Under the pieces are notes generated by a model that saw only the letters and a program-made list of their open reading frames with translations, made no database searches and was not told where the DNA came from. From the NCBI GenBank assembly GCA_963575645.1, contig OY754464.1, forward strand, positions 73,630,948 through 73,694,947: a stretch of DNA of 64,000 bases, given 5' to 3'. Shown here one piece after another: positions 9,124-59,442 of this stretch. Source of the stretch: Xanthostigma xanthostigma. Lineage: Eukaryota; Arthropoda; Insecta; Raphidioptera; Raphidiidae. Position 1 is the first letter of the stretch. Each line of letters begins with the position of its first letter. The position numbers and the translations under genes were made by a program.

Positions 9124-9274
9124 ATCCAAGTGTGTAGACTTTCACGGTCGGTGTTGATCCAAATCTTCTTGGTTTTCGAGCTTGTATGCCGTGGTCCATT
9201 GATATTTCTACCTGACTGCAGTTGTAGACGAAACGTCAGGTAGAAATACAAGCCCGGAAACCAAGAAGATTTGG
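9124..9274 (+). mobile_element. 151-bp structured insertion with a 13-bp target duplication
   Basis: ATACTGTCACATT occurs at 9111-9123 and again at 9275-9287 and exactly brackets this segment, so a 151-bp unit was inserted here with a 13-bp duplication. That length is more typical of target-primed retroposition than of a cut-and-paste transposon. The unit folds back: CCAAATCTTCTTGG near the left pairs with CCAAGAAGATTTGG at the right end, and TATTTCTACCTGA pairs with TCAGGTAGAAATA. Between the inner arms lies CTGACTGC...GTAGACGAAACGTC (9212-9237), a degenerate member of the ribozyme-like family. No coding capacity. Confidence 0.65.
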
Positions 9275-9670
9275 ATACTGTCACATTGCATAGGGTACGG
9301 TATTACTGTTTTAATTAGTTAATCATCTTCCCTAAATCTGTTTTTTTTTTATTATCGTGGAGGTAGACTTAATTGACAGGCATGCCTTGGTTAATTTTGC
9401 CGTAGGAAAATATACTACAAATATTTTTTTACTAGCTGCTACCCACGAAATCATAAACGTTAACGGAAACTTTATTTCTCCACTACGTTCTATTGTATTA
9501 TATCAAATCCAGTACTTTTGGAGTTGAAATAATCCCACTCCTGTCTTCCAATTGGCTGGAATTTTTCGCATAGATTAACGCGCCTCAAATCACTGCGCCC
9601 TAAAATATCTTTTGTGAATCTTCTCATATTTATTCCCAGTCGGATAGATATACCTTACTCTCTTGCTGGG

Positions 9671-9839
9671 GGCTGCCCTATACCCTTCTGTTCAGATATT
9701 GCAGGAAAGGATATATTCTAGTTTCCTTTGCTTCCTTGCAGAAATGACCTTTATCATCCCGAACCTTACTCATCTTTAGAGGGCAGTGGCCAGAGAAGTG
9801 TCCTGTTAGAATTCTCAGTTCTTCCTTACTGAGAATAAG
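9671..9839 (-). pseudogene. LINE RNase H domain relic
   Basis: From about 9839 on the minus strand one frame reads LSKEELRILTGHFSGHCPLK followed by DDKGHFCKEAKET. In the RNase H to C-terminal region of jockey/R1-group LINEs the pattern is L-S-[RK]-x2-[LA]-R-x-[LI]-x-G-x2-[TS]-G-H-C-x-L, then a C-x2-C-x4-E-T motif. One of the cysteines is replaced here and a stop follows at about 9671. Neither the LINE's 5' part nor its tail was found, so this is a short fragment. Confidence 0.55.
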
Positions 9840-10035
9840 GAATTATTTAGTCCGTTTAATTGAATGCGAGATAAATATCTTTAATTTGTTGGGTTCCAGC
9901 GAGAGTCTTTATTTTCATCCTCCCGTTTGCGAACTTCCATTTTAACATGACTTAGAATAGCAACGGAACTTGCATGTTGGAGGATTAAAATTAATGACGT
10001 CTAAATAAACTTAACATGCTCATAAAGCACGTCTA

Positions 10036-10064
10036 TCATTATTATTATTATTATTGTTGTTGTT
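10036..10064. repeat. Short (TTA)n/(TTG)n microsatellite
   Basis: About five TTA units are followed by TTG units. Confidence 0.8.
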
Positions 10065-10309
10065 ATTGTATTGTTGCCTGGGGCATTCCGTGCGCATATT
10101 GCCGTTGGATCGTTGACTTTATTGAGGTTACTATTAGCGCCCACCGGGACATTCTGGTCACGCGTGGGCAGGTCGCCAATACAACAACAGAAAACTTAAG
10201 AGGATGTCACTTACTCTTAAACTCTGACCACAAGACAAAACTGCTTACGTCAGTTGTTTGGTAATTTAAGTCGCCCTTAACTAAAGCCAGGTTTAATCCA
10301 ATGCAATCA

Positions 10310-10560
10310 CCGAGCGGGGTGGCGTAGAGCACTAGACTCGCATTCGGGCGGTACCGGGTTCGAATTCCGGCGGGGGCAGACGTGGCTGGGACTTTTTCCT
10401 GCTGCCTCTCGCCGAGAAACGGTAATTCCTGTACCGACAATCTTGTTCAGGTTTTCCATGGTTTCTCTCAATAATTTCAGATAAATATCGGGATGGTTCC
10501 TTATTCAAGGCCTGTCAAACTCCTGTGCTCCAAATTTGCCTACCTTATCGTAATGCCCTA
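10310..10560 (+). mobile_element. tRNA-derived SINE
   Basis: The head at 10310-10378 has a RNA polymerase III A-box-like GTGGCGTAGAGC, an anticodon-arm-like ACTCGCATT and a B box GGTTCGAATTCC. It lacks convincing acceptor-stem pairing, so it is not a tRNA gene. The unrelated body after it (to about 10560) has no coding capacity. A 3' tail and flanking duplication were not identified, so the end is approximate. Confidence 0.6.
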
Positions 10561-11354
10561 AATTCCTTCATTCGCCCATTGCCATTAGTTAAGTGGAAGC
10601 TTAAAAAATGTAGAAAATAACGGAAAGAGTGATAGATGGAAAATATTATAATCCAATGCACTCAAACGTAACGTACTCCTATAAAAGTGTCGCGCCAATT
10701 GCGCGGATCTACTCCCAATCAAACGCGCCATTAGATTTTCGTATAAAAAAACATCAAAATAAAGTATTTCAATCATATTAACACTTTATGTGGCTTGAAC
10801 AATTATTGCAAATTGTTTTCAATAAAAAATCGGAGCATTCGACGTCCCAATCAAAGGTGACTCGGGACGTGTTTACAGACTCCTGAAATTTGGGACGTGC
10901 CGCTCCAATCATAACATCTGCCAACGCTAAATGACCAAATCGAGCCTGTCTTTGTGTACAAAGTTGGTACTTGGTCGATTTTTTCATGCAACCAGAGAAT
11001 TATGAACACGCATATACGACGTCTATTAAATGGAATTTACTGACGCTTATCAAATAATAAGCTCTGCATATATGTCTTTTACGTAGTACCTATTTACTTT
11101 ATCTGTGATCTTGTTGGTGCTCCACTGTGTTCCGTAATAAACCGTAACAATAGAATTATTTATGTATCTACATTAAGATGCTGGGTCGAGACTATTGCAA
11201 AATTTACTGCGATAAATTCATTTTATTATGATTTGTCGTATCATTTGCCAATAGGGTACTTACGTGGAATGTTTTTATCATGCAGAACGAAAATTTACGT
11301 CAATTTGAACAAAACTAAAATCTGAGAAATGTTGAGCAATTCTTTGAAATGTAA
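10561..11354. other. No recognisable feature
   Basis: Two short minus-strand open frames here have no known motif. No repeats detected by eye. Confidence 0.45.
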
Positions 11355-11680
11355 TCTATACTAATATATAAAGCTGAAGAGTTTGTTTGTTTGGTTGAAC
11401 GCGCTAATCTCAGGAACTACTGGTTCGAATTGAAAAAAAATTATTGTTCGATAGCCCATTTATCGAGAAAGACTATAGGCTATATAATATCACGCTACGA
11501 CCAATTGGAGCGGAGCATTAATGAAAAATGTTGCAAAATGTAACTCAAAAGTCCGCCGACAAAAACTTTTGAACAGTAACTCCAATCATCATGAAATTTG
11601 GACACAACATCCATCTCGGTAAACTAAGATGAATGTGCGTACACATTTCCAAATGATGGAAATAAAAAGCAAAAGATGTG
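11355..11680 (+). mobile_element. Non-autonomous Helitron, 5' part
   Basis: Starts TCTATACTAATATATAAAGC directly after an A, the 5' end of a lepidopteran Helitron family. It shares GAACGCGCTAATCTCAGGAA and CATCTCGGTAAACTAAGATG with the complete copies at 17898-18120 and 56948-57268. After about 11680 similarity is lost and no hairpin-CTAG end is found, so the copy is truncated or interrupted. Confidence 0.7.
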
Positions 11681-11813
11681 TTTTATTCACATTAATTTGC
11701 TAAAAATATATCAGCAATTGCTTATACTGCACAGCAATTGCTTTACTGCAAAGCGATTGCTTTTACTAAATTTTTATTCACCGGAAGGCTAGCATTTACT
11801 TTAAAAAACTCTT

Positions 11814-12000
11814 AGCAGGGAGTCATAATTAAATGACGAAACGTCCAATTTAATAAAACAAGTTTTTATTTTTAACAATTGAATTTTATTAGTAAGGTAA
11901 GGTAAACTATAACTTTTAATAACATATTTGTATAGAAGTATTTATTTCATTATAATTATTTATAGTTGCTGATGAAGTTATAATTGAATGACGAAACGTC
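11814..12000 (+). ncRNA. Two hammerhead-like motifs in direct tandem, 155 bp apart
   Basis: At 11969-12000 the order is CTGATGA, A, GTTA, an 8-nt loop, TGAC, GAAAC, GTC. GTTA/TGAC pairs, and the flanks GTTG (just before) and CAAT (just after) also pair, which would be stem I. At 11814-11845 an older copy has a decayed core but GTCA/TGAC, GAAAC and GTC intact. Both are followed by CCAATTTAAT. Known hammerheads need C-U-G-A-N-G-A and G-A-A-A; the base between GA and stem II is an extra one, so activity is uncertain. The tandem layout is like that of ribozyme-bearing retroelements. Confidence 0.4.
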
Positions 12001-12504
12001 CAATTTAATGAAATCAAATTCAAGTTTATTTACCTTTCCAGCTTCCTACGATTTATCTAACTAATATTATACTATGGAAACGAATAATGAAACAAAACTC
12101 TTAGCGAACGTTTTTGCTTGGTTTTATTTACATCACCCACTGACTTAACCAGCAACGACTTATGAAGAGACTACTGTACTTATCAATGAAAGATAATTCT
12201 TATGAACATGGCCTACTATTGATTTAATTTATCGATTTGTTGATACTCTGCATATACTTGATTTTTATCTCTAAATGCATAACTATTCTATGTGCGATTT
12301 TGGCAATATCTGTGACGCAAATGAGCTCTTTAAGAATCATAAAGTGGTCGCTATTGACACTTTAAACCGCGCCAAAAGTTACGCCCCCTAACCAGTAAGT
12401 TTCATACGTATTTGGTGCCTTACGTTACGGTACGGGTCATGCGCCTTCATAGCAATCAGAGACATATTTTTTACGGAAATCTACGAAAGTTTCCGAGTCA
12501 AAAA

Positions 12505-13109
12505 AATTGGTTGTCTGTAAAGTCGGTTTACGGACGATAGTTTTACGTGATAACGTATTCCGTAATACATAACCTAAATTTATATAACAATTATAATAAT
12601 TCGAATCTATGATATTGCATCTTTCGCTTCAAATTTAGGTTAATTTTTTTTATTTAAATTACTCACCATATAATATAATTGTTTTTTTTTAACTTTCTTT
12701 CGTATTTATTTTAAGTCTCAAAGATTAGCTGTCATAATATTTATAAAACAATTGTTTCACTGTTTATAATATAAAATTCCAAAACCTACTTACAATATTT
12801 AAGTATTTTCATACGTCAAAAAATTAATTTTTATAATGATAAAATTTGTAAGAAATCGATTTTTTCGAGAGATGAGACCTAGCTAAAACGATTTTTTGCC
12901 CCCCAAAATCCCTTTTCAGTAAATTTCATCCAAATCGTTAGGGCCGTTTTCGAGAAAAGCACGCACAGGGTCAGGCGGAACGTTACGCGTTACGAACGTT
13001 AGGAACGTTACGCGTTAGGAACGTTACACTTTTTCGTGCATGCAGCCGGTGTTTTATCAATTTATAAGATTGGTGATTCATCAATTTATAAGACGTTATC
13101 ACGTCAAAA
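12505..13109 (+). mobile_element. AB element, copy 1
   Basis: A repeat with unlike ends: AATTGGTTGTCTGTAAAG at the left and GACGTTATCACGTCAAAA at the right. The inverted copy at 19860-20830 has the same two end blocks (about 140 and 125 bp) but a different middle. Its insertion into another repeat there shows that these are true element boundaries. The two ends share a short inverted ACGTGATAACGT. A segment ACGTTACGCGTTAGGA repeats near the right end. No coding content; class unknown. Confidence 0.6.
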
Positions 13110-13363
13110 TTGAACGGTTACGGATGATTGGAAGTTTGAAAAATCATGAAAATATAAGGAAATAATAAGTATGGTCAGACGCACACGTACAATGCGAATT
13201 AATTATCAGGGACGCCGTATGACGAAGCAGATTCAATTGCACTTTCATTGAAATGGTGTATTGTATTAAAATTTGAAAATCAGACTGCTTGTCATACTTA
13301 ACGAATAATGAATATGAAGAATAAGATTGGAAACCCTTGTTTTAGGTGCTGCAAAAGTCTTAA

Positions 13364-13654
13364 CACTTTGACGGACAAACCGGCTTAGACCGTCATAACA
13401 AAACTTCAAAAAATTGACACGGCGGCTGAAGCCGTCGTATACTACTGAACGTTTTATAGCCAGACGGGTGTAGCAGTCTATTTTCCAGTGTAGAATACAT
13501 ACCCTGTGTGCTCTGTGTCACCGTACAAATATCTACTAAGGCAATATTGTCACAACATAACAACTTTTAAAAGTAATTCAAACATATAAAAAAATTTAAA
13601 GACTATAGTGTCAAAATTGGAACAAAACTGAATTTTTAAGAGTCCGTCAAAGTG
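13364..13654. mobile_element. 291-bp TTAA-flanked MITE
   Basis: Ends CACTTTGACGGAC and GTCCGTCAAAGTG are complementary, with TTAA at 13360-13363 and 13655-13658. Terminal sequence and target site are piggyBac-like. No transposase. Confidence 0.8.
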
Positions 13655-13659
13655 TTAAG

Positions 13660-14450
13660 ATATTTTTATGACTTTGGGGATTAAATTAGTTCTAATAATG
13701 AATTGTTTTCATACATTAGTTTGCGAAGACATTTTTGTAACGAGCAAAAAAGAGGGAAAAAATAATTAATATGAAATAATCAATCCAGACGAGACCGCAT
13801 TTTCAGAATTGTGCCGGAATTACAAAAAAAAATGGTCAGATCGTTTGTGATTTAAAATATTATGCTGCGGCATCTTAATTGTGAGAGAGTTATTTAGGGT
13901 ACATTTCGCGTACAAATCTGCAGACAAAATCGACTTTCACGCGAGTGAAGGCACGAGAAAAAGTTGATTTCTATATATTTTTTGAAAAAAATATGATTAA
14001 CCGAAACTTGTCAAGCTTAATACTGATAAATTACTGAATTTATCTCTGTATATATTATGTTTTATAGAAGTGAATTTTGTAACATTATTTTATGATACGA
14101 GCGCTAAAGTTGTGTCAGATCAAATCGTGATGTACTCATTAAAACTGCATTAACAATTTAAATTTATAGATTCAATATATTTTAGATGTCTTGGGTTCAC
14201 CAAGCATAGAAATATAAAGGTAAATTTTTGCATATTATGAGATTTCATTTGACCTACTGAATCTGATAAAATATTTCTAACATATTAAAAATAATAAATT
14301 CTTCAAAATATTTGACCTGTCGTTAAAGTCAGATATGTCTATAAATATTGTTATTTTTTTCCATATATGTATATATATTTTACCTTCTGAAATGTATTGG
14401 GTGTTCTTTTCTTAACCGATTCATTTTGTTCACTGTGTATTATACACTAA
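13660..14450. other. No recognisable feature
   Basis: AT-rich DNA with no gene, tandem repeat or inverted repeat that I could identify. Confidence 0.45.
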
Positions 14451-14488
14451 AGTAAAACTGGTATGATTGTAAAAAAAAAAATTATAAT

Positions 14489-14560
14489 GGCACTGATCAC
14501 CGAGATCGAACCTACGATCTTTAGGTTACGAGGCAGGCGCTTTACCATGCTGAAAGCTTA
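14489..14560 (-). repeat. tRNA-like module inside a repeat
   Basis: On the minus strand: TCAGCATGGTAAAGCG (A-box-like), CCTGCCTCGTAACC (anticodon-arm-like with CGT) and GGTTCGATCTC (B-box-like). It is embedded in a longer repeat: about 80 bp away on the + strand side are TTTTCAATCTCAAGAATCAA and TACCGTGCC, also found near 40.6 kb (with a tRNA-like module) and 42.46 kb. It is not a tRNA gene because acceptor pairing and CCA-ready ends are absent. Confidence 0.5.
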
Positions 14561-14972
14561 GCATAATGTTCTACATCCAGTTTTTTTAGTGTATATATGT
14601 TATACGTAACATTTTCAATCTCAAGAATCAATTTGTTTCTACCGTGCCAAAAGATGTTTTACATCATAAATAATTTTAAAACTTCGATCAATCGAGACAC
14701 AAATTTCGTTTCTTTTTTGTGTCGTCTCATGGAGTGTCGTCATTTAAGCTTATTTCAAAAATAGTCAAGATTTTTTACATGAAAACTTATTGAATACCAC
14801 AAAAATAACCACGCAACATCATAACACTTTTTTTTAAGTAAAACTTCTGTAAAATCGATTCATAAAATTGAAAATGTTACAAAACGCTGCAAAAACAAGG
14901 GTCTAAGGATCAAACCATGGGGAACCTCGCCAATGCTCGTATACCATATACTATAAAAGCGGCTGTATTAGC

Positions 14973-15050
14973 ATTAAGCTATGGTGAGTGAGATATACAG
15001 CGTCTGCCTCGTACGCAACAAGTTAATTTGAATCCATCGGTCGGCGCCAT
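14973..15050 (+). repeat. tRNA-like module inside a repeat
   Basis: GGTGAGTGAGATATACAGCG, CTGCCTCGTACGC and TTTGAATCC are followed by GGTCGGCGCCATTTTTATT. The TGGCGC-plus-T-rich tail also follows the modules at 40396-40478 and 46876-46951, so they belong to one family. Acceptor pairing is poor. Confidence 0.45.
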
Positions 15051-15114
15051 TTTTATTATTTTGTTTTAAATTTGTATTATTATTTTATATATTATTTATA
15101 CATATCGTCGTTGG

Positions 15115-15495
15115 TTCTGTAATAGCTCTTATACGTGCATAATTGGCAGATTTTACGATTTTTAAATGAAAAGATTCAGGAAACAGAGCTCTATACGCTA
15201 GTAATACCTCCAAATTAATTTTACAGTAACCTACAAGGGGAAGTAACTTTTATGTGAAAAGTTGTATCAAATAATTCCTCCCATGTGCCAATAAATCCAA
15301 AATTAACGTTAAATATTTTTTAAGAAAATACTTCGTCTTAATTAAACATGTATAGTGAAGATAAGTATGAATATTATTAGTAATATACCTCTGAAATTGC
15401 TAGTTCTTAACATCCATTGCTGAAATAACCACTTTTTGGCCTTTCCTGCAAATTTTACTTTTTGCACATAACAGGTATTACAGAACCAACGACGA
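15115..15495. mobile_element. TA-flanked MITE-E copy 1
   Basis: Ends TCGTCGTTGGTTCTGTAATA and TATTACAGAACCAACGACGA are complementary; TA lies outside each end. A second copy is at 52843-53226 with nearly the same interior. TA target and TIR type suggest Tc1/mariner mobilisation. Confidence 0.8.
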
Positions 15496-15499
15496 TATT

Positions 15500-17076: not shown

Positions 17077-17078
17077 AC

Positions 17079-17127: not shown

Positions 17128-17129
<2 letters not shown>

Positions 17130-19080: not shown

Positions 19081-19812
19081 GCCATTGCAACGCGTGGTAG
19101 GTTACGGTTAGTAAATAGTAATATATAGAATATTTTTGTTTTAGCGGTTTATAGCTTCTTAAGCTTAATCAAATAGGTATTTTGAATTTGATTCCAAATG
19201 TCACAAGTTTTAAGGAAGTCTTCAAACTCCTTGATGTAACTTTTGGGACAGCCTGTAAATTCGAAGTGCTTTTCGGAAAGTTAAAAGCATTTTTAACAAA
19301 GGTAATTAAAAATGTCACAAGTAGATATTTTTAATTGCCGTTGATCTTATGACCATTGCGTAAATGAATATTAATTTAACTTGACTCGATGTGACACTTG
19401 TGAAAAATGTACGTACAAAATTTATGCATTTTTTTATAATATAATAAACAGTGACAAATGTTATTTTTTTTGTAACAACCTACCTGTGTTCATGTTCATA
19501 AAACTAAAGTAGTTAACTAAACCGGCGTTATTTATAAACTCGACGTTGCAAGTAGGTCAACACCCAAATTTGTATTTTTTTTGACTTGTTTTATTGATAA
19601 TTTTATAATTATGTCAATAGCTAAGTCCAAATCTTTGATTAACGTCTGATTAGAACTCTTCAATAAATAAAATTATCGACCAAGTTTTCGGACAATATAT
19701 TAATAAAAAATATAATTAATACATTAACGTTTCGATATTAGAAAAATCTTTCACAAATTGAAAATAAATAGATACTGAATATTAATTATTTTTTTATATT
19801 TTTAGATACGTT

Positions 19813-19844
19813 CTGAAGAAGATTTAAATCCGGATCGAAACGTT
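19813..19844 (+). ncRNA. Hammerhead-like motif
   Basis: Layout: CTGAAGA, A, GATTT, 6-nt loop, GGATC, GAAAC, GTT. Stem II pairs with two G-T pairs. The flanks GATACGTT (before) and AATGTATT (after) pair over eight positions, with two G-U pairs, as a stem I. Same 32-nt length as the members at 38525, 11969 and 23667. The extra A after CTGAAGA departs from the hammerhead consensus. Confidence 0.4.
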
Positions 19845-19859
19845 AATGTATTAATTATA

Positions 19860-20830
19860 TTTTGACGTGATAACGTCTTATAAATTGATGAATCACCAAT
19901 CTTATAAATTGATAAAACACAGGCTGCATGCATGAAAAAGTGTAACGTTCCTAACGCGTAACGTTCCGCCTGACCCTGTGCGTGCTTTTTGCTAATTTCT
20001 CGCTCAATTTAAATCAGATCGGTTTGAAACCAGTCTTAAACGAAAGAGGAGAACATTTTACATAGATTTCGTATAACAGAATTTGCCTAAACAGTTTTTT
20101 TATACAAATTTATATAGAAAAATAGTTGTATAAATGCAATGTTGTCTAATGCATGGCGCGACGCGGTCGGTCGTCTTTGTTTGCCGTACATGGAAATTAG
20201 AAAATAACGTATGTCTTGTCTTAACATGAAAACGGCTGCATTTCTAATGTTTAATTCAATTTTTTGACATTAGTATTTTGTGAAATGCAACGCCTTCTAA
20301 GTTAAGTATTTGGAATAACTAATTATTATTAGAACATAATACTTTGACAGTTGCAAACGTCACTTTTGACATTTCTTATCATTCCGACACCAAGGATAAG
20401 CGGATTGAAACCAAATTTTGGGAGGATGTTTGATATGCAAATATGAAGTGGCCTATTGTTTTTGGAGAACATCGGCGCATGCGTAAAAGAATATATCTCT
20501 TATAATGATGTTTTATATAATAATAATATAGTTTTTAAAACGGTTTTTACTCTATCTATTTTTACTAGAAATTTTTGTAAATTTTTTGGGGAAAATCGGC
20601 GCATGCACAAAAGAGATACATGCCATAGTTGTTTTTTATATAATAATAGTGTACTTTTTATAGTGTTTTATTATTCTACTTAATAAAATTTACCTAAATT
20701 TGAAGCGAAAGATGCAATATCATAGATTCGAATTATTATAATTATTATATAAATTTAGGTTATGTATTACGGAATACGTTATCACGTAAAACTATCGTCC
20801 GTAAACCGACTTTACAGACAACCAATTTTT
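19860..20830 (-). mobile_element. AB element, copy 2 (inverted)
   Basis: Reads as the reverse complement of 12505-13109 at both ends: TTTTGACGTGATAACGTC at the left, CTTTACAGACAACCAATT at the right. The middle differs and includes a two-copy repeat of about 130 bp with ATCGGCGCATGC at about 20471 and 20597. It splits the TIR element at 19659-20881. Confidence 0.6.
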
Positions 20831-22959: not shown

Positions 22960-23952
22960 ATACTGATGTCGCTACTTGGTACTAAAACAGTTTTTTGTTG
23001 TTTGCTTCTGAACTAATAGCTTTGAGTAAATTCTATTAGATGTCGTTACATGTTACTACAACAGTTTTTTTAACAAAACGCCGTAATTTTGTAGAAAATA
23101 TTTTATAAAAATTATCCTATAGCGTAAGTTGCATCAAGCAAAGGCACATTTACAAAATTTCATTAAAATCGGCTAAGTGGTTTCGGAGATCAGCGCGGCC
23201 AAAATTGATTAGATATATACAATTCTCGTGTCACAATTTTGGCCGCGCTGATCTCCGAAACCACTGAGCCGATTTTAATGAAATTTTGTAAATGTGTCTT
23301 TGCTTGATACAACTTACGCTATAGGATAGTTTTTAATAAATATTTTGAACAAAATTACGATGTTTTCTCAATAAAACTGTTTTAGTAACATGTAACGACA
23401 TCTGATAGAATTTACTCAAAGCTATTAGTCAGAAGCAAACAAAAAAAACTGTTTTAGTACCAATTAGCGACATCTGTTAAAATTCGCTCAAAGCTATTAG
23501 TTCAGAAACAAATTTGCTAGAATTTGCTCGACGCCGCGCCGGGCAGCAAACGATATAAATTTTTGTTGATACGATGACGGCTGTGATCTTGATAGTAAAG
23601 GAGAAAATTAACGGGTGAAATGGCCAATTTGGAGTTGTAGAGAATTTTTATTTTTAAAGTATAGTCGACGTTTCGCTAACTTTTGTTAGCATCCTCAGGA
23701 CCTAAGGATCGTAGAAATACAAACAATATAACTTCAGTAATTAGCAAAAATACATGAACTGAAATAACAAAAGTACAAAAAAAAACAATTCTTACCAACT
23801 AAGATATAAAAATTTTACTTTTAGTATTATTTTACACTTATAAATGCGTTTTATGAATTCTTCATTACAACAATAGATAGATACAATAGGTGTAGTATAT
23901 AGGACGGTCATTTTGTCTATCGCACCCGGGTGAAGCCGGGACGGACCGCTAG
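22960..23952. mobile_element. Helitron-type palindrome: two 5' halves head to head plus one 3' end
   Basis: From the centre at about 23220, GTGTCACAATTTTGGCCGCG runs right, and the same series of blocks runs left in inverse orientation (GGCCGCGCTGATCTCCGAAA, AAATTTCATTAAAATCGGCT, AGTAACATGTAACGAC-type). The right half continues to a Helitron 3' end at 23952 (CCCGG, loop, CCGGG, then ACCGCTAG). CAAAGCTATTAG units repeat several times. The left half has no matching 3' end within the window. Confidence 0.6.
23667..23698 (-). ncRNA. Hammerhead-like motif, best stem II
   Basis: Minus strand: CTGAGGA, T, GCTAAC, AAAA, GTTAGC, GAAAC, GTC. Stem II has six perfect pairs. Flanks GGTC (before) and GACT (after) pair as a short stem I, counting one G-U pair. 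The position equivalent to hammerhead N7 is G here, T at 11969 and A at 38525, which fits a site known to vary in hammerheads. One extra base after CTGAGGA. It lies in a gap between Helitron parts. Confidence 0.45.
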
Positions 23953-38145: not shown

Positions 38146-38647
38146 ACAAGATAAAATTGTCGACCAATTTTTCTCGTTTGGTCTGAGAAAAATTGGTAAA
38201 AAAAAGTGTTAAAATTTTAGATAATGAAAGTAATTATTTTAAAAGAAGTATTTCGGAAATGTTATATATAAAATCTAATAAAAACTCTCTTAATGCTCAA
38301 TTAGATACGGAAAATTTAAGTAATATTTATGATATTATTTTGAAATAATATTTTGTTTTTTCAAATAATTTTTTCTTCATGGGTACTTTGATATCCATGA
38401 CTACGGTTTATAAATTTTGTTTGTTATTAATTTTTCATTATTTTTGAACCATTCAAAGTTTCAATCCTGCGTGAAATCTATTACTTAATTAATACTAATT
38501 AATTTTTATATTTTTTAGATATTTCTGAAGAAGATCCAAATCCGGATCGAAACGTCATCTTGTGTTATATTGATTTGTAATTTTATCATTTTTTGTCAAT
38601 ATATCGTTTGGTCTGAGAAAAATTGGTCGACAATTTTATTTACTTGA
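38146..38647. mobile_element. 502-bp TIR element bearing a ribozyme-like motif
   Basis: AAGATAAAATTGTCGACCAA at the left and TTGGTCGACAATTTTATTTA at the right are inverted. CGTTTGGTCTGAGAAAAATT occurs near both ends in the same orientation. It is the uninterrupted relative of 19659-20881, with the motif at 38525-38556. Confidence 0.6.
38525..38556 (+). ncRNA. Hammerhead-like motif
   Basis: CTGAAGA, A, GATCC, AAATCC, GGATC, GAAAC, GTC. Stem II has five perfect pairs. Relative to 19813-19844 the left arm changed GATTT/GATCC, replacing G-U pairs by G-C pairs. Stem I pairing is poor here. Confidence 0.4.
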
Positions 38648-39011: not shown

Positions 39012-40219
39012 TATTCAAAGCAATGGCACGTCAATCCGGTGTCGGAGAGGCAACCGGATGGCGAGTGGTAATCTGGGCCTATGAGTGGTGCAGAACCCCC
39101 TGGTAGCGGCCAAAGTGACCCCAAATGGACGGGGGCGGCGATATGGGGGTGGGGCAAAATCGAAAAATGTTTGAAAAGGCAACCGGATAAAAATGCGGTT
39201 GCATTGAAGGAAATACCCTAATTATATAATAAATTTTTTTTGCCATCCGAACCACGCGGGCCGTTTTTGCACTAGCGAATTAAAAAAAAATAAAAAAAAC
39301 ACTGAAAAGGCAACCGCTTCAAAATTAGTGAGCATACTTATTGACACCACCAAACGTTGGGAAAAAATTGCCATCCGATCCTGATGGGCAGTTTCGGAGA
39401 AACAACCCCTCAAAGTCGCCGAAAAACCCTTTTTTTCGATTTTTTCAACAATAAGTAAAAAAAACACACTAAATATTGTTCAAATCGGATGGCATTCGAA
39501 ATTTATACTGTCCTAAGTACAAATAATAGTGTGTATCAATGCCATCCGATTTTGATTATTTTTACCCCTATTAAGCCAACCCCCAAAACTCAATAACAAT
39601 AAAAATAATGCCATATGCTGCATAAAATTGTTATTTTCATGAGTTCTGGGGGTGGCTAAATAGGGGTAAATTTAATCGAAATCGGATGGCATTGATACAC
39701 ACTATTATTTGTACTTAGGACAGTATAAATTTCGAATGCCATCCGATTTGAACAATATTTAGTGTGTTTTTTTTACTTATTGTTGAAAAAATCGAAAAAA
39801 AGGGTTTTTCGGCGACTTTGAGGGGTTGTTTCTCCGAAACTGCCCATCAGGATCGGATGGCAATTTTTTCCCAACGTTTGGTGGTGTCAATAAGTATGCT
39901 CACTAATTTTGAAGCGGTTGCCATTTCAGTGTTTTTTTTATTTTTTTTTAATTCGCTAGTGCAAAAACGGCCCGCGTGGTTCGGATGGCAAAAAAAATTT
40001 ATTATATAATTAGGGTATTTCCTTCAATGCAACCGCATTTTTATCCGGTTGCCTTTTCAAACATTTTTCGATTTTGCCCCACCCCCATATCGCCGCCCCC
40101 GTCCATTTGGGGTCACTTTGGCCGCTACCAGGGGGTTCTGCACCACTCATAGGCCCAGATTACCACTCGCCATCCGGTTGCCTCTCCGACACCGGATTGA
40201 CGTGCCATTGCTTTGAATA
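39012..40219. mobile_element. 1.2-kb near-perfect palindromic element
   Basis: Arms of about 580 bp from TATTCAAAGCAATGGCACG to its complement are almost identical; I noticed only a few differences. A central segment of about 50 bp (about 39590-39640) is not symmetrical, which argues against an assembly artefact. TGCCATCCG and GGCAACCG motifs recur about seven times per arm in both orientations, like multiple protein-binding sites. The two 81-codon open frames at 39222-39467 (-) and 39764-40009 (+) are the same arm read twice and need not be protein. No target duplication is evident, so the superfamily is unknown. The similarity of the arms implies recent origin or arm-to-arm gene conversion. 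Confidence 0.8.
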
Positions 40220-43318: not shown

Positions 43319-43909
43319 CAGTAAAACTTCGATTATCCGACAAAGTAATAATCTTCGTAAAGTTTATTTTTTTAACGAGCAAGGCGCGTCTTTTCACGTT
43401 ATTTTTTTTTTAACTTTTTACCTCCAGTATTTTCAGAACAGAAAAATATTTTATTTTTTGTGTTTTATTTATAAATAATTATATTATTAACACCTTTATA
43501 CGTATTTAAATGTGTCCAAACGTATAAAAAACAATTGAAAATATTTATAACTTGAAAATCATGGAAAGGCTGTGCAACTAAAAACAAATTAATTAATTCT
43601 CAACGTTTCGTTCATAATTGAATTGTAAAACATTACGTCTGTATTTTTTCCCGAAACCTTGATAAAGTCCAAATGTTTAGACGAAACGTTGTGAATTTAA
43701 ATTGTTCCAATTGTCTTTATTATTTTGTCCAACCTCTCCGTAATTTTCAAGAGCTATATATAAATATTTTAGACACAAAATGTCACACTAATAATATTTT
43801 GTATTTCACCCGGAATAATTGTTTTCTGGGTCTTCGTGTAACAATATTTTTCAAGGCATTAATTAACCGTTCATATAACGGACGTAATCGTATAAACGAA
43901 GTTCTGCTG
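43319..43909. mobile_element. pogo-like element with an inserted hairpin
   Basis: CAGTAAAACTTCGATTATCC at the left and the complement of CAGCAGAACTTCGTTTATAC at the right, with TA outside both ends. No pogo transposase remains. A hairpin at about 43589-43702 with TTCTCAACGTTTCGT/ACGAAACGTTGTGAA arms includes a ribozyme-like segment. Confidence 0.65.
43658..43690 (+). ncRNA. Degenerate hammerhead-like motif
   Basis: C, TTGATAA, A, GTC-C-AAA, TG, TTT-A-GAC, GAAAC, GTT. Stem II pairs with one mismatch. The core has the C-TTGA variant also seen at 59254-59286 and 59360-59392. Confidence 0.3.
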
Positions 43910-44660: not shown

Positions 44661-44667
44661 GACTTAA

Positions 44668-45133
44668 GAGTATTCGTCCCGGCAAAGACCCCCTGCACCC
44701 TTCATCTCAAATCTTTTCCCCTCGCCTAAAAACGTTTCGCGCTCTCCCGACGCTATTTTTAAAGCTAGAGGGTTCTGGTAAACGCCAAATGAAAGACAAG
44801 GAATCAGACTACACATCCTTCAGGCGAATTTTTTGAAAAACAGTTTCGCCTACGTGCGAAATATTACGTAACGTATTATTTTTTTCAAAAGGTTGTAAGT
44901 TTTTTCAGGAATTTTTTTTCAAAAAATTCGCCTGAAGGATCTGTAGTCTGATTCTTTGTCTTTCATTTGGCGTTTACCAGAACCCTCTAGCTTTAAAAAT
45001 AGCGTCGGGAGAGCGCGAATCGTTTTTAGGCGAGGGGAAAAGATTTGAGATGAAGGGTGCGCGAACTGTTTTTAGGCGAGGGAAAAAGATTTGAGATGAA
45101 GGGTGCAGGAGGTGTTTGCAGGGACGAATACTC
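44668..45133. mobile_element. MITE-A copy 3
   Basis: Full-length copy with TTAA at 44664-44667 and 45134-45137. It has a local duplication of the segment with GTTTTTAGGCGAGGGRAAAA in the right arm, making it about 45 bp longer than copy 1. Confidence 0.85.
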
Positions 45134-45137
45134 TTAA

Positions 45138-45949
45138 AAGAGCGAATTATAAGGAGCGTTGATCTTGTGAGAGATCGGAAAGAAGTAGACTACTTGATAA
45201 CTGTTACAGAGGACAGAAAAACTACCCGTGCCCCGCGTCTATCTCGCATAAAAAGTAGCGGGGGACAGCATAAGAAGTTTAACTTATATATTGTATAATA
45301 ATACTTATTTATTATAATTTATAAACGTGACGATTATAACAAAAGTGCCGTATTATAGAATGTGAATTTTTCATTCAAGCTAGGGAAATGGTTCAGTCGC
45401 CATGTTACTTATTTTTTCACGGGTTCGACATAAGTGATTTTTCCTTTACACTACAGATATGAAAATGTCTGGACATAACAAGCCTTAAGGTGTGATAGTG
45501 TTTTCCAATGCTATGCAAATAATACAACATATTGTGGAATCCATGTTTGTATTGCTCATCGTACGAAAATAAACGAATGACACGGTTCGTTCATTTGTTT
45601 GAACAAATTCTAATCAACAATATATACACAGCACACTTAATCAATTCGTTTGTCTTCTGTTTTGACACTAAACCGTTACTGATCGAATTTCACGTCAGAA
45701 ACGCACTTGTAAGTTTTTATTTAATTTGTTTCTTTTTCTAACACTTATTAAATTTGATTGGTTATTTTTCTAATACGTATTGACAATTTTGGAATGTTAC
45801 ATGATTAAAACACTAACGTTACTAAATTTTGTGTTTGATTTTAAATAAAAACTTATTAATTAGTGTAAATCATTGACCTAGCAAGAGACTTTCCTTTTTG
45901 TCTAAAACGAACCGTTTGTATGTCTATTCCGCAATTATGGCCAATCTAG
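45138..45949. other. No recognisable feature
   Basis: Short open frames only; nothing with family motifs. Confidence 0.4.
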
Positions 45950-52505: not shown

Positions 52506-52590
52506 ATGACTAGTACGCCGATTGGTGCAGCTGCAGCTTCTTTACATCACCATAAAAGGCCAGGAAGTGGATTAAGTCTCAGTGTTTTAG
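52506..52590 (+). CDS. First coding exon of an unidentified host gene
   Basis: ATG at 52506 in a good context (AATAAAATG) opens 28 codons: MTSTPIGAAAASLHHHKRPG, then SGLSLSVL. The donor AG|GTATGTAACT follows and the exon ends in phase 1. Codon content contrasts with the AT-rich surroundings. The upstream 300 bp lacks mobile elements and has no in-frame ATG nearby, so it is a plausible 5' UTR. The next exon is not visible before 64000; the gene would need a first intron of more than 11 kb, now full of elements. I do not recognise the protein. Confidence 0.55.
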
Positions 52591-52624
52591 GTATGTAACT
52601 TTTCTGTTTTTACTCTGTTAGCAA

Positions 52625-52700
52625 TAAGGGCGTAGATATTTTTTTTCTGATGGGGGTTAAAGCGTAAAAAATCAATATTTTTTGTGGGGACTTTTGATAT
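52625..52700 (+). mobile_element. 5' fragment of the 21.6-kb hAT family
   Basis: AAGGGCGTAGATATTTTTTT and the following AATCAATATTTTTTG match the left end of the element at 21561. The right end is absent. Confidence 0.55.
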
Positions 52701-52842
52701 TTCATTTGTAATAGTGTACTTAAGACCTGTACCAGTTTTCAGCTCCATTCGAAATTGAAATGTTTATTTTGACTGGACTAACAACAGTCTGTGTATTGAC
52801 AGCTTAGAGTCTAACAACACGATATAAATAATATTGATTATA

Positions 52843-53226
52843 TCGTCGTTGGTTCTGTAATAGCTCTTATGTGCATAGTTCGCAGATTTTACGTTTTTTA
52901 AATGAACAGATTCAGGAAACGGAGTTCTATACACTAGTAATACCTCCAAATTAATTTTACAGAAACCAACAAGGATAAGTAACTCTTATGTGAAAAGTTG
53001 TATCAAATAATTCCTCACATGTGCCAATGAATCCGAAATTAACGTTAAATATTTTTTAAGAAAATACTTCGTCTTAATTAAACACGTATAGTAAAGATAA
53101 GTATGAATTAGTAATATACCTCTGAAATTGCTAGTTCTTACCATCCATTGCTGAAATAATCACTTTTTGGCCTTTCCTGCAAATTTTACTTTTTGCACAT
53201 AAGAGGTATTACAGAACCGACGACGA
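52843..53226. mobile_element. TA-flanked MITE-E copy 2
   Basis: Nearly identical to 15115-15495 over its full length, with TA outside both ends. It lies within the presumed first intron of the gene starting at 52506. Confidence 0.8.
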
Positions 53227-53675
53227 TATGCAGGAATTAATTTCATTCACAATTTTGGAAATTATTAATTAAATAGGCGACCTTAACCTAAGGATAATAA
53301 TGCCATTAACTTAAAAGTCACACAGGAAGTGTATATGGAGAGTTTACCATATTAAGATACATTACCTATTTGCATAGTAATAAAAAGTCATTCATTAATA
53401 ATAATAATAATAGTATGTGTATATTTTATTGATTTTGTTGTCGGTGTTATTTAGAAGTAATTAAAAAACTATAATTTATTGAAAGACTGTTTTCCTCATC
53501 GTTTTAATACTTAACCCTACAGTGAACCCGCCATCATCAGTGTAAAATGCATATTCCTGACTTATGGTTTTCTATTGAAACGAGAATTAAGAAGATTTTT
53601 TTGCATGGCTACATGAATGGAGCGGCATAGTCTGAATGAAATGACACTTAAATTACTTCATTCTGATTTCAAATA

Positions 53676-54140
53676 CAGTGGATTTCGGTTATAGCGACGA
53701 TGAGGGGACCGAATAATTCCGTCGCTATATCCGGAAGTCTCACGCGGCGCCACTGTATAATGCAATAAACATAATATAGTTTTTCAGAATATAAATTTTC
53801 TAAACCTTAGTATGTACAGTGGATTTCGGTTATAGCGACGATGAAGAGACCACATAATTCCGTCGCTATATCCGGAGGTCGCTATATCTGGAAGTTTCAC
53901 GCGGCGCCACTGCATAATGCAATAAACATATACCTAGTTTTTCAGAATATAAATTTTCTAAACGTTAGTATGTACAGTGGATTTCGGTTATAGCGACGAT
54001 GAGAGGACCGCATAATTCCGTCGCTATATCCGGAAGTCGCTATATAGAAAGAAAAGTATACTTTAAATTTAAGGGACGTGTGTCGTCGCTATAACCGAAA
54101 AGTCCTTACAACCGAGGTTGTTATGAATGAAAATCCACTG
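53676..54140 (+). mobile_element. TIR element with its 5' end repeated three times
   Basis: CAGTGGATTTCGGTTATAGC starts at 53676, 53817 and 53975, each followed by GACGATGA and AATTCCGTCGCTATATCCGG. A single inverted end finishes at 54140 (AAAATCCACTG). TA precedes each left end. The terminal style is pogo/Tc1-like. The array arose after the element lost its transposase. Confidence 0.7.
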
Positions 54141-54477
54141 TGCGTTTAAAAATACCTTTCAAAATATTTATCTAAACTTTTTAAAGTAGGTACCTTATTA
54201 TCCATTTTTCGTTTTATTGAATACAAAAATAATTGGCATGCCTTCTCACAGTACTGACGATGTGAAGGACAAAATTCATTGGCCAACGAACATTTTTTTA
54301 ATCGTAACAAAGCGGCTCTTTAAACGATATCTGCACGAATTTTAAATGTTTCTGTTGAAATTGAAAATGTACGTAGCTAAATTAATTTCGTTACAGATTG
54401 TTTACGTAGTGGGAAGATACCTAGATATAGGCTTGACAGATTAAAATTTAAGCAAAAACTGTAGGAGTCAGGAAAAT

Positions 54478-54745
54478 ACGCTGTCATGGTATAAAAAACA
54501 ATATTTTGATGAAAAATGTATTAAAGTATATAAAAGGGATCTACCGTATTAATTTAGAATAAAAAAAATTTCTATTTTTTTCATTAAAAAATGCGGTATA
54601 ATCGTTGCTAACTAGAAAAAAAAAATTTTTTTTATTCTAAATTAATACGGTAAATCCCTTTTATATACTTTCATACATTTTTCATCAACATATTGTTTTT
54701 TACCATGTCAGATTCAATTTTTAAGCGCCGTGACAGCGTTTTTTC
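54478..54745. mobile_element. 270-bp palindromic element
   Basis: AAAAGGGATCTACCGTATTA and TTTAGAATAAAAAAAATTT on the left pair with the complements on the right. Outer parts extend to CGCTGTCATGG and CCGTGACAGCG. Arms are about 85 bp or longer. Confidence 0.7.
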
Positions 54746-54890
54746 ATAAGCAAATCAGCTTTTACAAGGGCCGTGTCAAAACACCACCTTAATTTTTTTC
54801 TGAAAGAAGGTTTGACATCTATTTTATGCATAAAAATTGGTCTGTCTGCGAAAAAATGTTTGTTACTATGACAGACTTCATAAAAAAAAA

Positions 54891-55150
54891 TTTATAACAA
54901 AATATGAAATCTGACAAATTTATTAACAAAAATTGTCAGCCAGACAAGTTGTATTAGATAGAAGAGATCTTAAACTTTATTTAAAAAAAATTCAAGGAGG
55001 TGTTATGAAATGTATTTTCATAAAAAAAAATAATTTATAACAAATGAAGTCTGACAAATTTATTAACAAAAATTGTCAGCCAGACAAATTTTTTCAAAAA
55101 TGGTACTTTATTTACTACAAATTGTATAAATTTCAAGCAGGTGTTTTGGA
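54891..55150 (+). repeat. Two-copy tandem repeat, about 142-bp unit
   Basis: TCTGACAAATTTATTAACAA and AAATTGTCAGCCAGACAA occur in both units. AT-rich and non-coding. Confidence 0.65.
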
Positions 55151-55687
55151 AAAAAAATCATGTTTTTTTTTTTTAAATTCAAAAATTCATAAAAAATAAC
55201 AATTAACAAATTTTTACTAGTCTGGCGGGCGTAACATGTTTCTTACATGTTTTTCAGCCATTTTCACTTTATAATTTTGAGGTGTTCATAGGGGTAACTT
55301 TTTCTGTCATGGGAGCTTGAACTACTAGCACATGAATCTTGTCGTCATCTGGATTCTAGACGAATCTAACCGTTGAAAATAGACTAGAGAGTGATTCACG
55401 TGGTCGCTGAATGGTTGGAATAGGCGTAATTATTATTCACTGTCGGTTCATTAATTGATTCCGTTGTTATTACAAAAGTCTTTTATATGGTATAATTTGA
55501 ATATTAACATTTTGCACCATTTCCTGATGTTCTATGTAAAGCAGAAATTATGAATGAAATAGCATTGAACGTTTTAGTCAAGTGCATTACGTCATCATAT
55601 TTCGTTCATAAAAATCATCGGTTCTTTTACTTCATTTGAATCGTTTTCTATAACTACCCTTACCTATAACTCCAAGAAGAAATATAT

Positions 55688-55792
55688 TACACCACAAGGG
55701 CCGAAAGTGTGATATTCTTGCACTATGCGCCATGATACTCGAGGTGCTGACGCGCAGTGCAAGGTATCACACTTTCGGCCAGTGTGGTGTAT
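55688..55792. mobile_element. 105-bp palindromic MITE
   Basis: TTACACCACAAGGGCCGAAA with GTGTGATATTCTTGCACT pairs with AGTGCAAGGTATCACAC and TTTCGGCCAGTGTGGTGTA. Nearly the entire unit is stem. Confidence 0.7.
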
Positions 55793-56277
55793 ACTATTTT
55801 GCTTCATACCTTGGTCGTAAGTACGCTTATTAATTAGTTAATTACTTATTTATTACATAAAATACAGATAAATTCCAAGCAAGTAGCTTTGAGGTTATCT
55901 ATATGTAAAAACACGAATGACAGCTGTTCGCGACTATTAGCTAAAATGTAATTGAAACGACGTCTAAACAACAGTTGATAGGTTATTCTTACTTGACTGC
56001 CGCCCGAATGCACGTACTTCCCGCATCAGTGCGTGTAACCCACCTATGCGTAAATGTTAGACTTTCTGCCTTATAATTGATGCCGAAAGTATATACTTTC
56101 GATCGAGGTTATTAAGCAAAAAATTATTATGAACATGGATAAGGTTCTTCAAGAAATTATATTTACCAAATAAATAATTTAACCGAAACTTAAAAATACG
56201 GGAATAAATTTAGTTGAAAATACATCAGTTCGACTGCAAGTTCTGTCAAAACCGACAATAACGGAGCGAAGACTATA

Positions 56278-56493
56278 AGGTCTAGTTTATATGAGAGGCG
56301 TTCAACGCGCGTTGGCCCAACGCGCGTTTACAACTTCTATACAGTTGTACCTATATAACTGATTATATGATAACGCGCGTTCAACGCGCCACCAACGCGT
56401 GTTATCATGTGAACAGTTATATACAATTGTATAGAAACTGTAAACGCGCGTTGGGCTAACGCGCGTTGAACGCCTCTCATATAAACTAGGCCT
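56278..56493. mobile_element. 216-bp hairpin MITE with AACGCGCGTT palindromes
   Basis: AGGTCTAGTTTATATGAGAG and CTCTCATATAAACTAGGCCT are the ends; GGCGTTCAACGCGCGTTGG and its inverse follow inward. Arms of about 90 bp. AACGCGCGTT/AACGCGC units recur at least six times. Confidence 0.8.
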
Positions 56494-56947
56494 AAAAGAA
56501 ATATTGATCTTGTGGTATTATTTTCTTTTGTTAAAAAAAGATCAGATTCCCTGTATGATCGTAGCAAGGATAAGTTCATTTGGGGACAAGATTCGTTCGT
56601 GAACGACGCATCGTTTGTTTACAGCGGTTATGTTAATTTTATTAATTAACCATATCATCTGACCTTGTCTCTTTTGTATGTCCAGTTTATAAATGCCAAG
56701 CCTGTAGACATTGATCATAACGTTCACACAATAACAATACAACGTACTTAACAAGACGTACGCATGCGCATTGTGAAAAAACCTTCAACTTGAAGCGATT
56801 TATTAGTGAATGATCGATTCAAGTGGAAATTTTTTACCAAACATGTAAACAATCTTGTCAGGTGAAAGTGTTGTTTCTATAAAAATGTTTTTTTACCAGT
56901 GAATTGCCCAACTTATTGACCCGTCACTTGTTCCATGTAGAATAAAA

Positions 56948-57268
56948 TCTATATACTAATATATAAAGCCGAAGAGTTTGTTTGTTTGTTTGGTTGAACG
57001 CGCTAATCTCAGGAACTACTGGTTTGAATTGAAAAAAAAATTTTTGTTGGATAGTCCATTTACCGAGGAAGGCTATAGGCTATATAATAACGCTACGGCC
57101 AATAGGAGCGGAGCATATATGAAACGAATGTTGCAAAATTTGTCCATCCGACGGTAACTCCGATCATCATGAAATTTGGACACAACATTCATCTCGGTAA
57201 AGTAAGTACTCATCTCCCTCCCTCCATTCGTTCATTTGCACCCGGATGAAATCGGGCGGGATCGCTAG
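56948..57268 (+). mobile_element. Complete non-autonomous Helitron
   Basis: TCTATATACTAATATATAAA after A, and CGGGCGGGATCGCTAG before T, with the terminal hairpin CCCGG...TCGGG. 321 bp; same family as 11355 and 17898, keeping the middle that the latter lost. Confidence 0.85.
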
Positions 57269-57328
57269 TGAAAAGTTTTTAAAGTGACAAAACTTAAGAG
57301 GATTCTCACATTGATGACTAAATGCACG

Positions 57329-57359
57329 CTGATGAAGCTAGAATCGTAGACCAAACGTT
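57329..57359 (+). ncRNA. Hammerhead-like motif
   Basis: CTGATGA, A, GCTA, GAATCG, TAG(A)C, CAAAC, GTT. The core CTGATGA is perfect, stem II has one bulge and GAAAC has become CAAAC, so this member is probably dead. Confidence 0.3.
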
Positions 57360-57994
57360 GGAAATATAAATTAACATATTGTACAGGCTAAAGGTTCCAT
57401 TTTCCCGTTAGTATACTCTTTTTAAAACACATGAGAGGAACGATAACAACAACCAATATGAATAATTTCTTAATGTTTGTTCAGTAACTTCTCGAAGGGT
57501 TTACCAAATTGAAAATTTTTACTCTAAAAAAATGAGCTGAACATGAAACGGCATATTTATGATTTTACATGGTAAATCTTTGTTTACACTTAAGGAGTTC
57601 ACCAGCCGTATAGATAGCATTAGATATCCATAATAAGACGTTGTTATTAAAAAAGAAAAGTAATAATTGTGTAGGATACTGAAATATATAGATTGATTAG
57701 TCATACTTTCAGTGATTGAGGGGTTTGCTATTATGGGATTGTCGTTACGTATGGTGTCACTGAATTATTGACAACTTATCGAGTCAATAAAACGTAATAA
57801 ACAACGCCTAGATTGACACTAATTAATACAAAACAGCATTAATTAACAGACACAACGACCGTAAATAAACACTATGCATGCATGCATCATTTGCATTACA
57901 CCTCTGTTAATGCAAAATAGTACCAAATATATCCTCAGGTGAATCGAAATGTGGTGGATGCACGCTCTGAGGCTAGCGTTGACCACCGACATTT

Positions 57995-58455
57995 TCAATA
58001 GCTGCTCATAACTCGAGAGCTGGCTACAGTGTGCGGATTTACTTCGTTGACATTCGGTGATTGCTTTGGATATCTGGTGGCAGATGATGCTTGATGTTAA
58101 GATTGTTTGGCATTCAATGGCTGCTTTAAATTCTAGAGCTGGTTACAGAGTGCGGATTTAGTTCGTTGATTCGTTGACATTCGATGATTGCTTAGGATAT
58201 CTGGTGGCAGATGATGCTTGATGTTAAGATTGTTTGGCATTCAATGACTGCTCATAACTCTAGAGCTGGTTGCAGTGTGCGGATTTACTTCGTTGATTCG
58301 TTGACATTCGATGATTGCTTAGGATATCTGATGGCAGATGGTGCTTGATGTTAAGATTCTTTGGCATTCAATAGTGCTCAAAATTCTAGAACTGGTTACA
58401 GTGTGCGGATTTAGTTCGTTGATTCGTTGACATTTGGTGATTGCTTGGGATGTAT
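57995..58455 (+). repeat. Minisatellite, 119-126-bp unit, about 3.7 copies
   Basis: GCGGATTTAGTTCGTTGA-type blocks start at 58033, 58152, 58278 and 58404. Later units share an extra TTCGTTGA compared with the first. The array ends exactly where MITE-A copy 4 begins. Confidence 0.9.
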
Positions 58456-58692
58456 GCTGGCTTACAACCTTTTGAAAAAAATAATAAGTTACGTAATATT
58501 TCACACGTAGACGAAACTTTTTTAAAAAAAATTCGCCTGAAGGATCTGTAGTCTAATTCTTTGTCTTTCATTTGGCGTTTACCAGAACCCTCTAGCTTTA
58601 AAAATAGCGTCGGGAGAGCGCGAACCGTTTTTAGGCGAGGGGAAAAGATTTGAGATGAAGGGTGCAGGGGGTGTTTGCAGGGACGAATACTC
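58456..58692 (-). mobile_element. MITE-A copy 4, half element
   Basis: Contains the central segment (CTTACAACCTTTTGAAAAAA) and one arm to GACGAATACTC, followed by TTAA at 58693-58696. It is in opposite orientation to copy 1. The other arm is missing, replaced by the minisatellite. Confidence 0.8.
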
Positions 58693-58699
58693 TTAACAT

Positions 58700-59213
58700 G
58701 CAGCTATAGTGTTGGGTGCGATGATTCATTGACCCATGGATGGGCTGCTACTATACACTAAAAATCCAAAATTGGCTACAACAGTATCAAACTTCGAAAG
58801 CTTAATTCAGATATTGTGAAATCACTACGTGATTGCACGGCACAGTGCGGTAAACAGTTCTGAAATTTCACCCAATATTTGTGAACTTGACCAACGTTGT
58901 TTTTGCCTTGTGGATAGCCTTTTGCAGTTGCGCAAAGAGTGTGCAAGCAACACATAATACATTGTATTTAATTTTATTTAAATCATATGTACGGTCATAA
59001 ACACATTCAGACATTATGTTGATATTTGTTTTAAATCGATACGGTACAATGGAATTTCGCATGTCGAACAAAAATTGAGGAAGCTGTAAATTTTGTTTAA
59101 AATTAGAAACAGACAATACTCAATTTTAAATGTCTGTAATTGTAACAGTAATGTAACAGTATTCACAAATATATTTTAGATATGGTGTCCATCGATAATA
59201 ATTAATAAGAAAA
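58700..59213. other. No recognisable feature
   Basis: A short minus-strand open frame of 82 codons at 58868-59116 has no recognisable motif. Confidence 0.4.
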
Positions 59214-59442
59214 ATCGCAGGTTTGTGGACAAAAGTTATATTTAGAAATGTACGACGTTTCGTCTATAAATTTAGACTTTTTCAAGTACAATATGAAAAT
59301 TATTTAAAACAATAATTATGACAATAATAATTATTGTTTTAAATAATTTTCATATTGTACTTGAAAAAGTCTAAATTTATAGACGAAACGTCATACATTT
59401 ATAAATATAACTTTTGTCCACAAACCTGCGATTTTTCTTATT
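59214..59442. mobile_element. 229-bp near-perfect hairpin with a ribozyme-like motif in each arm
   Basis: AATAAGAAAAATCGCAGGTT and its complement are the ends; the arms (about 100 bp) are nearly identical. Motifs at 59254-59286 (minus) and 59360-59392 (plus) read C, TTGAAAAA, GTCTA, loop, TAGAC, GAAAC, GTC, with TGTA/TACA flanks able to pair. The centre is ACAATAATTATGACAATAA-like. It abuts the end of the DIRS-type fossil. Confidence 0.65.

Follow-up and report, generated by a model that had tools for sequence, protein, structure and literature searches.

A dispersed family of hammerhead-like motifs with an extra core base in Penelope-like elements of Xanthostigma xanthostigma

Dispersed minimal type I hammerhead ribozymes are known from Penelope-like elements (PLEs; PMC7761336, PMC7229834, PMC6155905, PMC6431247), where, according to the available excerpts of these papers, copies number in the thousands and the role of the ribozyme is "still a mystery" (PMC7761336). 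We analysed a 64-kb window (the whole stretch of DNA considered here; C1:73630948-73694947, GC 33%) of the genome of Xanthostigma xanthostigma (623 Mb, 28 contigs), in which an initial annotation had described ten hammerhead-like sites. In keeping with its insect origin, the genome has 78 matches to the odorant-receptor family PF02949, which is not known outside insects. We consider it very likely that these motifs are hammerhead ribozymes, or decayed remains of them, from the pseudo-long terminal repeats (pLTRs) of several PLE families. The evidence comes from the sequence, the covariation of the stems, the base at the predicted cleavage site (H17), the linkage to PLE genes and the anatomy of the insertions, and self-cleavage itself is a prediction drawn from these.

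The motifs resemble the minimal type I hammerheads of PLEs, including that of PAc of Anolis (PMC11167929), in their position at the junction of pLTR and open reading frame (ORF), the reduced stem III, the dispersed copies and the insertion ends past the cut. They differ in a constant extra base after A9 and in a common U3-A8 pair. The family may therefore be a variant of the known PLE hammerheads, or just a new member of them if Cervera and De la Pena 2014 or Lunse et al. 2017 show both features. In the available part of its description, Penelope of Adineta vaga has head-to-head inverted pLTRs, an optional tail of ~31 bp and target duplications of 8-10 bp (PMC3846280); inverted pLTR, tail and target duplication recur here, although the 12 clear cases here have duplications of 11-17 bp and this arrangement is met with very often. 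Metazoan retrozymes, given in an excerpt as type I hammerheads in tandem repeats of ~300 bp (PMC7229834), likewise place hammerheads in animal repeats, whereas the hammerheads here lie mostly in head-to-head pairs with PLE anatomy.

Hammerhead-like motifs in the window and the genome

The motif follows one plan: a stem I strand, C3 (or U3)-U-G-A-N-G8 (or A8)-A9, an extra base, stem II, GAAA-C-G-U, H17 and the second stem I strand. We scored the window with a covariance model (R1) built from an alignment (A1) of 16 rows, all from outside the window. These were 16 of 61 motif rows, chosen by hand for the presence of motif and stem II; same-subfamily copies, window copies and rows without stem II were omitted, and because two pairs of rows are related (L001/L017 and L013/L018), A1 represents ~14 subfamilies. 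The subfamilies of the motifs at 19813 and 38525 are also among the rows on which R1 was trained. The following features were identified in the window:

6443..6640, no strand: PLE-derived inverted insertion with 10-bp target duplication copies at 6443-6452 and 6631-6640 (R1 and sequence reading)
9205..9245, +: copy of a U3-A8 subfamily with an inner deletion (no R1 match; sequence in common with locus L078 at 4500)
11822..11844, +: decayed motif of the same subfamily as 11961..12008, only the 3' half left and CTGATGA lost (R1 E 0.014)
11961..12008, +: PLE hammerhead motif of C3-G8 type, stem II 5 bp, stem I 5 bp (R1 E 6.2e-9)
19718..19762, -: decayed head-to-head (inverted) partner of the 19813 motif, with the longer tail (R1 E 0.2 and sequence reading)
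19805..19852, +: PLE hammerhead motif, stem I 8 bp (R1 E 1.7e-9)
23659..23706, -: PLE hammerhead motif of C3-G8 type, stem II 6 bp, stem I 4 bp (R1 E 8.1e-9)
38517..38564, +: PLE hammerhead motif of the commonest listed subfamily, weak stem I (R1 E 3.5e-9)
43651..43698, +: decayed motif of U3-A8 type (R1 E 0.0097)
59246..59293, -: PLE hammerhead motif of U3-A8 type, stem I 5 bp, left arm of the palindrome 59204-59442 (R1 E 1.3e-7)
59353..59400, +: PLE hammerhead motif of U3-A8 type, right arm of the palindrome 59204-59442 (R1 E 8e-6)

Six of the ten sites first described are thus strong in R1 (E <= 8e-6) and two are weak (~0.01), while the membership of the remaining two, 57329 and 9212, found no support in R1. 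The site at 57329, which had been ranked among the good ones, carries CAAAC in place of GAAAC (R1 E 1.2 at 57321, +) and was rejected, as was a further candidate at 5411 (R1 E 1.3). The 9212 site gave no R1 match up to E 10. Because a TTGA-type copy with a complete stem II, at 4500 in L078, has CAGTTGTAGACGAAACGTCAGGTAGAAATAC in common with it, we took the site as an inner-deletion copy. Two decayed motifs were absent from the earlier list, namely the partner at 19718-19762 (-) and one inside the 6443..6640 insertion (6518-6545, -; R1 E 0.016).

The order of CTGANGA, one base, stem II and GAAACGT, proposed as common to all sites, is intact at four of them (11969, 19813, 38525 and 23698, -), which thus have the hammerhead core of CUGANGA and GAAA with A15.1-U16.1, and CTTGANAA replaces CTGANGA (UUGANAA in RNA) at 59285 (-), 59361 (+) and 43659 (+). 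The stem I lengths of 8, 5 and 4 bp given earlier for 19813, 11969 and 23698 (-) agree with the flanks, as judged by eye and with G-U pairs included. A separate repeat, GACGTGATAACGTC..., is present in three copies in the window (787-878, 13002-13110 and 19859-19967); that at ~19859 interrupts the downstream arm of the 19813 PLE insertion.

Genome-wide, a looser pattern (CTGANGA-N7-N(4-20)-N3-GAAACGT) had 20,913 matches, against 193 for the same pattern reversed as control. A stricter pattern, in which a single extra base and closure by a G-C pair were required and which by its letters omits stems starting GA or ending TC, had 3,490 against 3. The chance recurrence of a degenerate pattern in AT-rich DNA could account for 57329 and 9212, two of the ten sites, which are no better than chance to R1; it is refuted for the family by these counts and by the covariation described below (0/500), and its probability is negligible.

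Stem pairing, the additional base and positions 3 and 8

Stems I and II covary strongly across subfamilies with unlike flanks. In A1 (nine pairs, 141 cells), 91.5% of cells are paired against 50.6 +/- 3.5 in shuffled alignments (0/500), a percentage that for stem II is favoured by the hand choice of rows. Cells changed on both sides number 62 against 19.0 (0/500), the covariation score is 1.021 against 0.204 +/- 0.044 (0/500), and further pair types number 27 against 21.0 (8/500). When the partner was shifted by one to three columns, the score fell to 0.127-0.196. The proposal of a ribozyme or ribozyme-derived family is supported by this covariation, which also answers the objection, raised with it, that the stems might reflect shared descent of one palindrome.

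The register of stem II was examined in 50 distinct inserts from the first 100 listed places of the looser pattern, all on contig C1, for which a stem was not a criterion. At least four pairs formed in 28/50 inserts with one base skipped after CTGANGA, in one with none skipped and in one with two skipped (shuffled mean ~0.8). Across 19 clusters, stemless ones included, stem II pairs in register 1 only (82/95 cells against 48.2 +/- 4.4 shuffled; other registers 37 and 35), and stem I forms in the register in which H17 alone remains unpaired (53/76 cells against 31.6 +/- 4.2; other registers 22, 28 and 23). Canonical hammerheads require stem II straight after A9; here one extra base, mostly A or T, lies in between throughout and must stay unpaired for stem II to form. 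This additional base, noted earlier at the window sites, is therefore systematic. We set aside the idea of a start codon formed by A9, an extra T and G10.1; several frames stop soon (by eye).

In the available portion of one study, one or two inserted bases beside CUGAnGA fall within known hammerhead alignments (PMC10085705). A viroid hammerhead with an extra core nucleotide (De la Pena and Flores 2001) is similar in having one nucleotide added to the conserved core, but there the extra base occurs in one RNA, and in the present family all subfamilies have it. The viroid's extra nucleotide, too, reportedly sits after A9.

H17 is T, C or A in 61/61 motif rows. Among the genome matches, the base after GAAACGT is G in just 177/20,913, whereas the reversed control keeps 29/193; this rarity of G matches the hammerhead cleavage rule.

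A second departure from the canonical core concerns the pair between positions 3 and 8. When the base preceding TTGANAA is placed in stem I, these copies have U3 and A8, a paired change of C3-G8. We had considered the CTTGA subfamily as ribozyme-dead and rejected this, since placing its C in stem I gives U3-A8 together with stem I pairing at several copies: 59285 (-) has five pairs, L030 three, L031 three and L078 at 4500 four. The placement fits poorly at 59361 (0 pairs), 43659 (one) and L010 at 2908 (two).

The U3-A8 pattern has 4,974 copies in the genome (control 22), and the mixed forms are rarer (C3-A8 471, control 7; U3-G8 770, control 4); under independence of positions 3 and 8, ~17 U-A copies would be expected. 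These three patterns are alike save for the letters concerned, and for C3-G8 only the looser-pattern count of 20,913 is available, so that the comparison is approximate; genome copies descend from few masters. U3-A8 was found with several stem II sequences and at two PLE lineages, one at L031 (minus strand, with GIY-YIG at 1501-1704 and the motif at 952) and the second at C1:26.03 Mb; its copies may reflect only a handful of events. In a PLE hammerhead, C3G and G8C each abolish cleavage and the double change restores it partly (PMC11167929). We found no paper on a U3-A8 pair in a hammerhead ribozyme in the literature searched, where exact-word searches are no proof of absence.

Linkage to PLE genes and the anatomy of insertions

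PLE loci of several lineages were collected from GIY-YIG hits and from a search with a domain-checked protein containing reverse transcriptase (RT) and GIY-YIG domains. Linkage was counted at 33/50 of them, the 17 omitted loci overlapping counted ones or sharing one cluster on C4. A same-strand R1 motif lies downstream in 28/33 loci at E <= 0.05 (26/33 at 0.01), figures in which four loci (L035, L036, L041 and L065) had given rows to R1, many loci represent one PLE subfamily and strands were tallied by hand. The five loci without such a match at E <= 0.05 are L030, L032, L033 (E 0.23), L037 and L065. An opposite-strand motif was identified on the 5' side in 11/33 loci and on the 3' side in 0/33. 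The position downstream of PLE RT/GIY-YIG genes bears out the initial annotation in naming minimal PLE hammerheads as the nearest known kind.

Locus L078 shows the layout of an element: an inverted motif near 80, between 560 and 772 a motif that lacks its initial bases, then an RT and GIY-YIG open frame to 3306 and a motif at 3707. In this lineage the motif reads GAAAC-TA-GTC, with a two-base stem III loop; after GTC, stem I keeps its register (by eye). The PLE gene at C1:26.03 Mb is flanked by direct motifs spaced 3,096 bp apart, and the motif-flanked unit is also present inverted alongside. At seven loci (L001, L003, L011, L012, L017, L036 and L065) a T-rich tract ending in AG and then AT stands a few bases upstream of CTGA; it looks like a 3' splice site right before stem I.

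Orientation was counted in the first 100 listed places of each of two genome searches. Neighbours less than 1 kb apart are head to head (-,+) in 19/21 cases among those of the looser pattern and in 14/15 among those of the second search. The remaining close neighbours are direct (3/36 in all), and +,- was never seen among the listed places. The retrozyme arrangement, in which short units with one hammerhead apiece stand in direct tandem, is thus not the prevailing one.

Target duplications were sought in 17 pairs (15 from the looser-pattern list, the window pair at 59 kb and L038) and were found at 11-17 nt in 12 (p <= 0.025 against shuffles), with no clear duplication in L010, L015, L021, the window pair and L038. 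In the 12 duplicated pairs, counted from the start of CTGA, the shorter arm ends at 94-122 nt and the longer at 117-167 nt (difference 9-53 nt), and the predicted cut lies ~31-33 nt from the same point. The insertions thus end past the predicted cut, and the template for DNA synthesis was therefore uncut at its 3' ribozyme. Inner truncation varies between copies. Outward-facing inverted pairs with target duplications are also what terminal inverted repeats of a DNA transposon resembling a miniature inverted-repeat transposable element would give, as a DNA palindrome kept by a transposase. We dropped this reading on account of the differing inner truncations and unequal arms; subfamilies with unlike flanks covary and the motif adjoins RT/GIY-YIG genes, all of which makes such an origin very improbable. 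The window copies themselves look like truncated PLE ends.

On the preferred reading, in which the motifs are PLE hammerheads, the ribozyme could cut PLE RNA after H17 at the pLTR/ORF junction. As the self-complementary A-C-G-U would form a stem III of only two pairs, cleavage would probably proceed via paired copies, the mode of action reported for such minimal hammerheads. New copies would arise by target-primed reverse transcription beginning ~60-90 nt beyond the predicted cut, commonly primed from both target strands by analogy with a PLE studied in vitro, whose protein cleaves the two target strands, extends both and initiates reverse transcription at an internal template position (PMC11167929). 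This would leave a head-to-head pair of 5'-truncated copies, of which one has the longer tail, with target duplications on either side. Two-strand priming is a reading taken from PMC11167929, and the present data do not favour it over self-priming, which in the available part of the Adineta vaga study is preferred for the inverted junctions (PMC3846280).

Several observations weigh against active ribozymes of PLE origin. The number of A1 pairs with any both-side change shows no excess (8 against 7.4 shuffled, 276/500), and stem III is just the palindrome ACGU. Because close pairs are mostly inverted, the arms of a read-through RNA would pair together and not fold as ribozymes. A viroid hammerhead is, in the excerpt available, reported to be weakened by an extra core base (PMC11014351). 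We detected no PLE coding remnant in the window (tblastn with five PLE proteins, E 1e-3). Rfam reported no hammerhead in the window at the gathering score or up to E 10 and none at ten loci, where it gave mostly microRNA-type hairpins; that standard models might miss the motif had been anticipated, and the Rfam hammerhead models tried indeed miss the extra-base class. Finally, in the PLE studied in vitro, ribozyme mutants insert as before and RNA ends mapping to the cut were not detected (PMC11167929).

This last result, together with the insertions in the X. xanthostigma genome that end beyond the cut, would also suit a ribozyme-derived, non-catalytic structure that the PLE protein binds as folded RNA, as a packaging or priming signal. 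The near absence of G at H17 (177/20,913) and the joint change of both sides of the 3-8 pair are expected from catalysis and not from a plain binding hairpin, and we regard a purely non-catalytic role as unlikely.

If the motifs are ribozymes, we conjecture that the extra base slows cleavage or makes it dependent on protein, which would spare the start of reverse transcription beyond the cut. A weak or protein-gated ribozyme would suit the insertions because their template was uncut at its 3' ribozyme; the PAc hammerhead did not cleave without protein (PMC11167929). Only tentatively do we propose a distinct subclass of hammerhead, defined by a fixed bulge after A9 and interchangeable C3-G8 and U3-A8 pairs in at least two PLE lineages, a case of natural covariation within the catalytic core, in which cleavage would be tuned down and template RNA spared. 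With its many subfamilies and over 20,000 copies, the family amounts to a natural mutagenesis set in which conservation extends to the stems, H17 and the 3-8 pair. The set suggests cleavage slowed through the constant extra base, and DNA insertions in it stop well beyond the cut.

Canonical hammerheads and other repeats

Genome-wide searches with RF00163 and RF02275 scored 73/81,843 and 58/26,350 candidates, respectively. Among those scored with RF00163, two places reached 33.6 bits, below the cut-off of 34. The first, L079 (C1:5417220-5417400), is a canonical hammerhead without the extra base, in which stem II directly follows CTGATGA, and is possibly a retrozyme. The second, of equal score, is at C1:46574205-46574250.

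The window also contains broken fragments at 60106-60651 (-) and 61832-62344 (-) that match Phage_integrase (tyrosine recombinase) and RVT_1, as in a DIRS-like retroelement. An inverted repeat at 39012-40219 has 572-nt arms that are 99% complementary around a spacer of 64 nt. A dispersed palindromic repeat family forms long hairpins (334-740, 4672-5100, 44664-45138 and 58461-58696) that draw microRNA-type Rfam matches under the cut-offs. Tandem arrays with 63- and 126-bp units occupy 63047-64000 and reach the end of the window.

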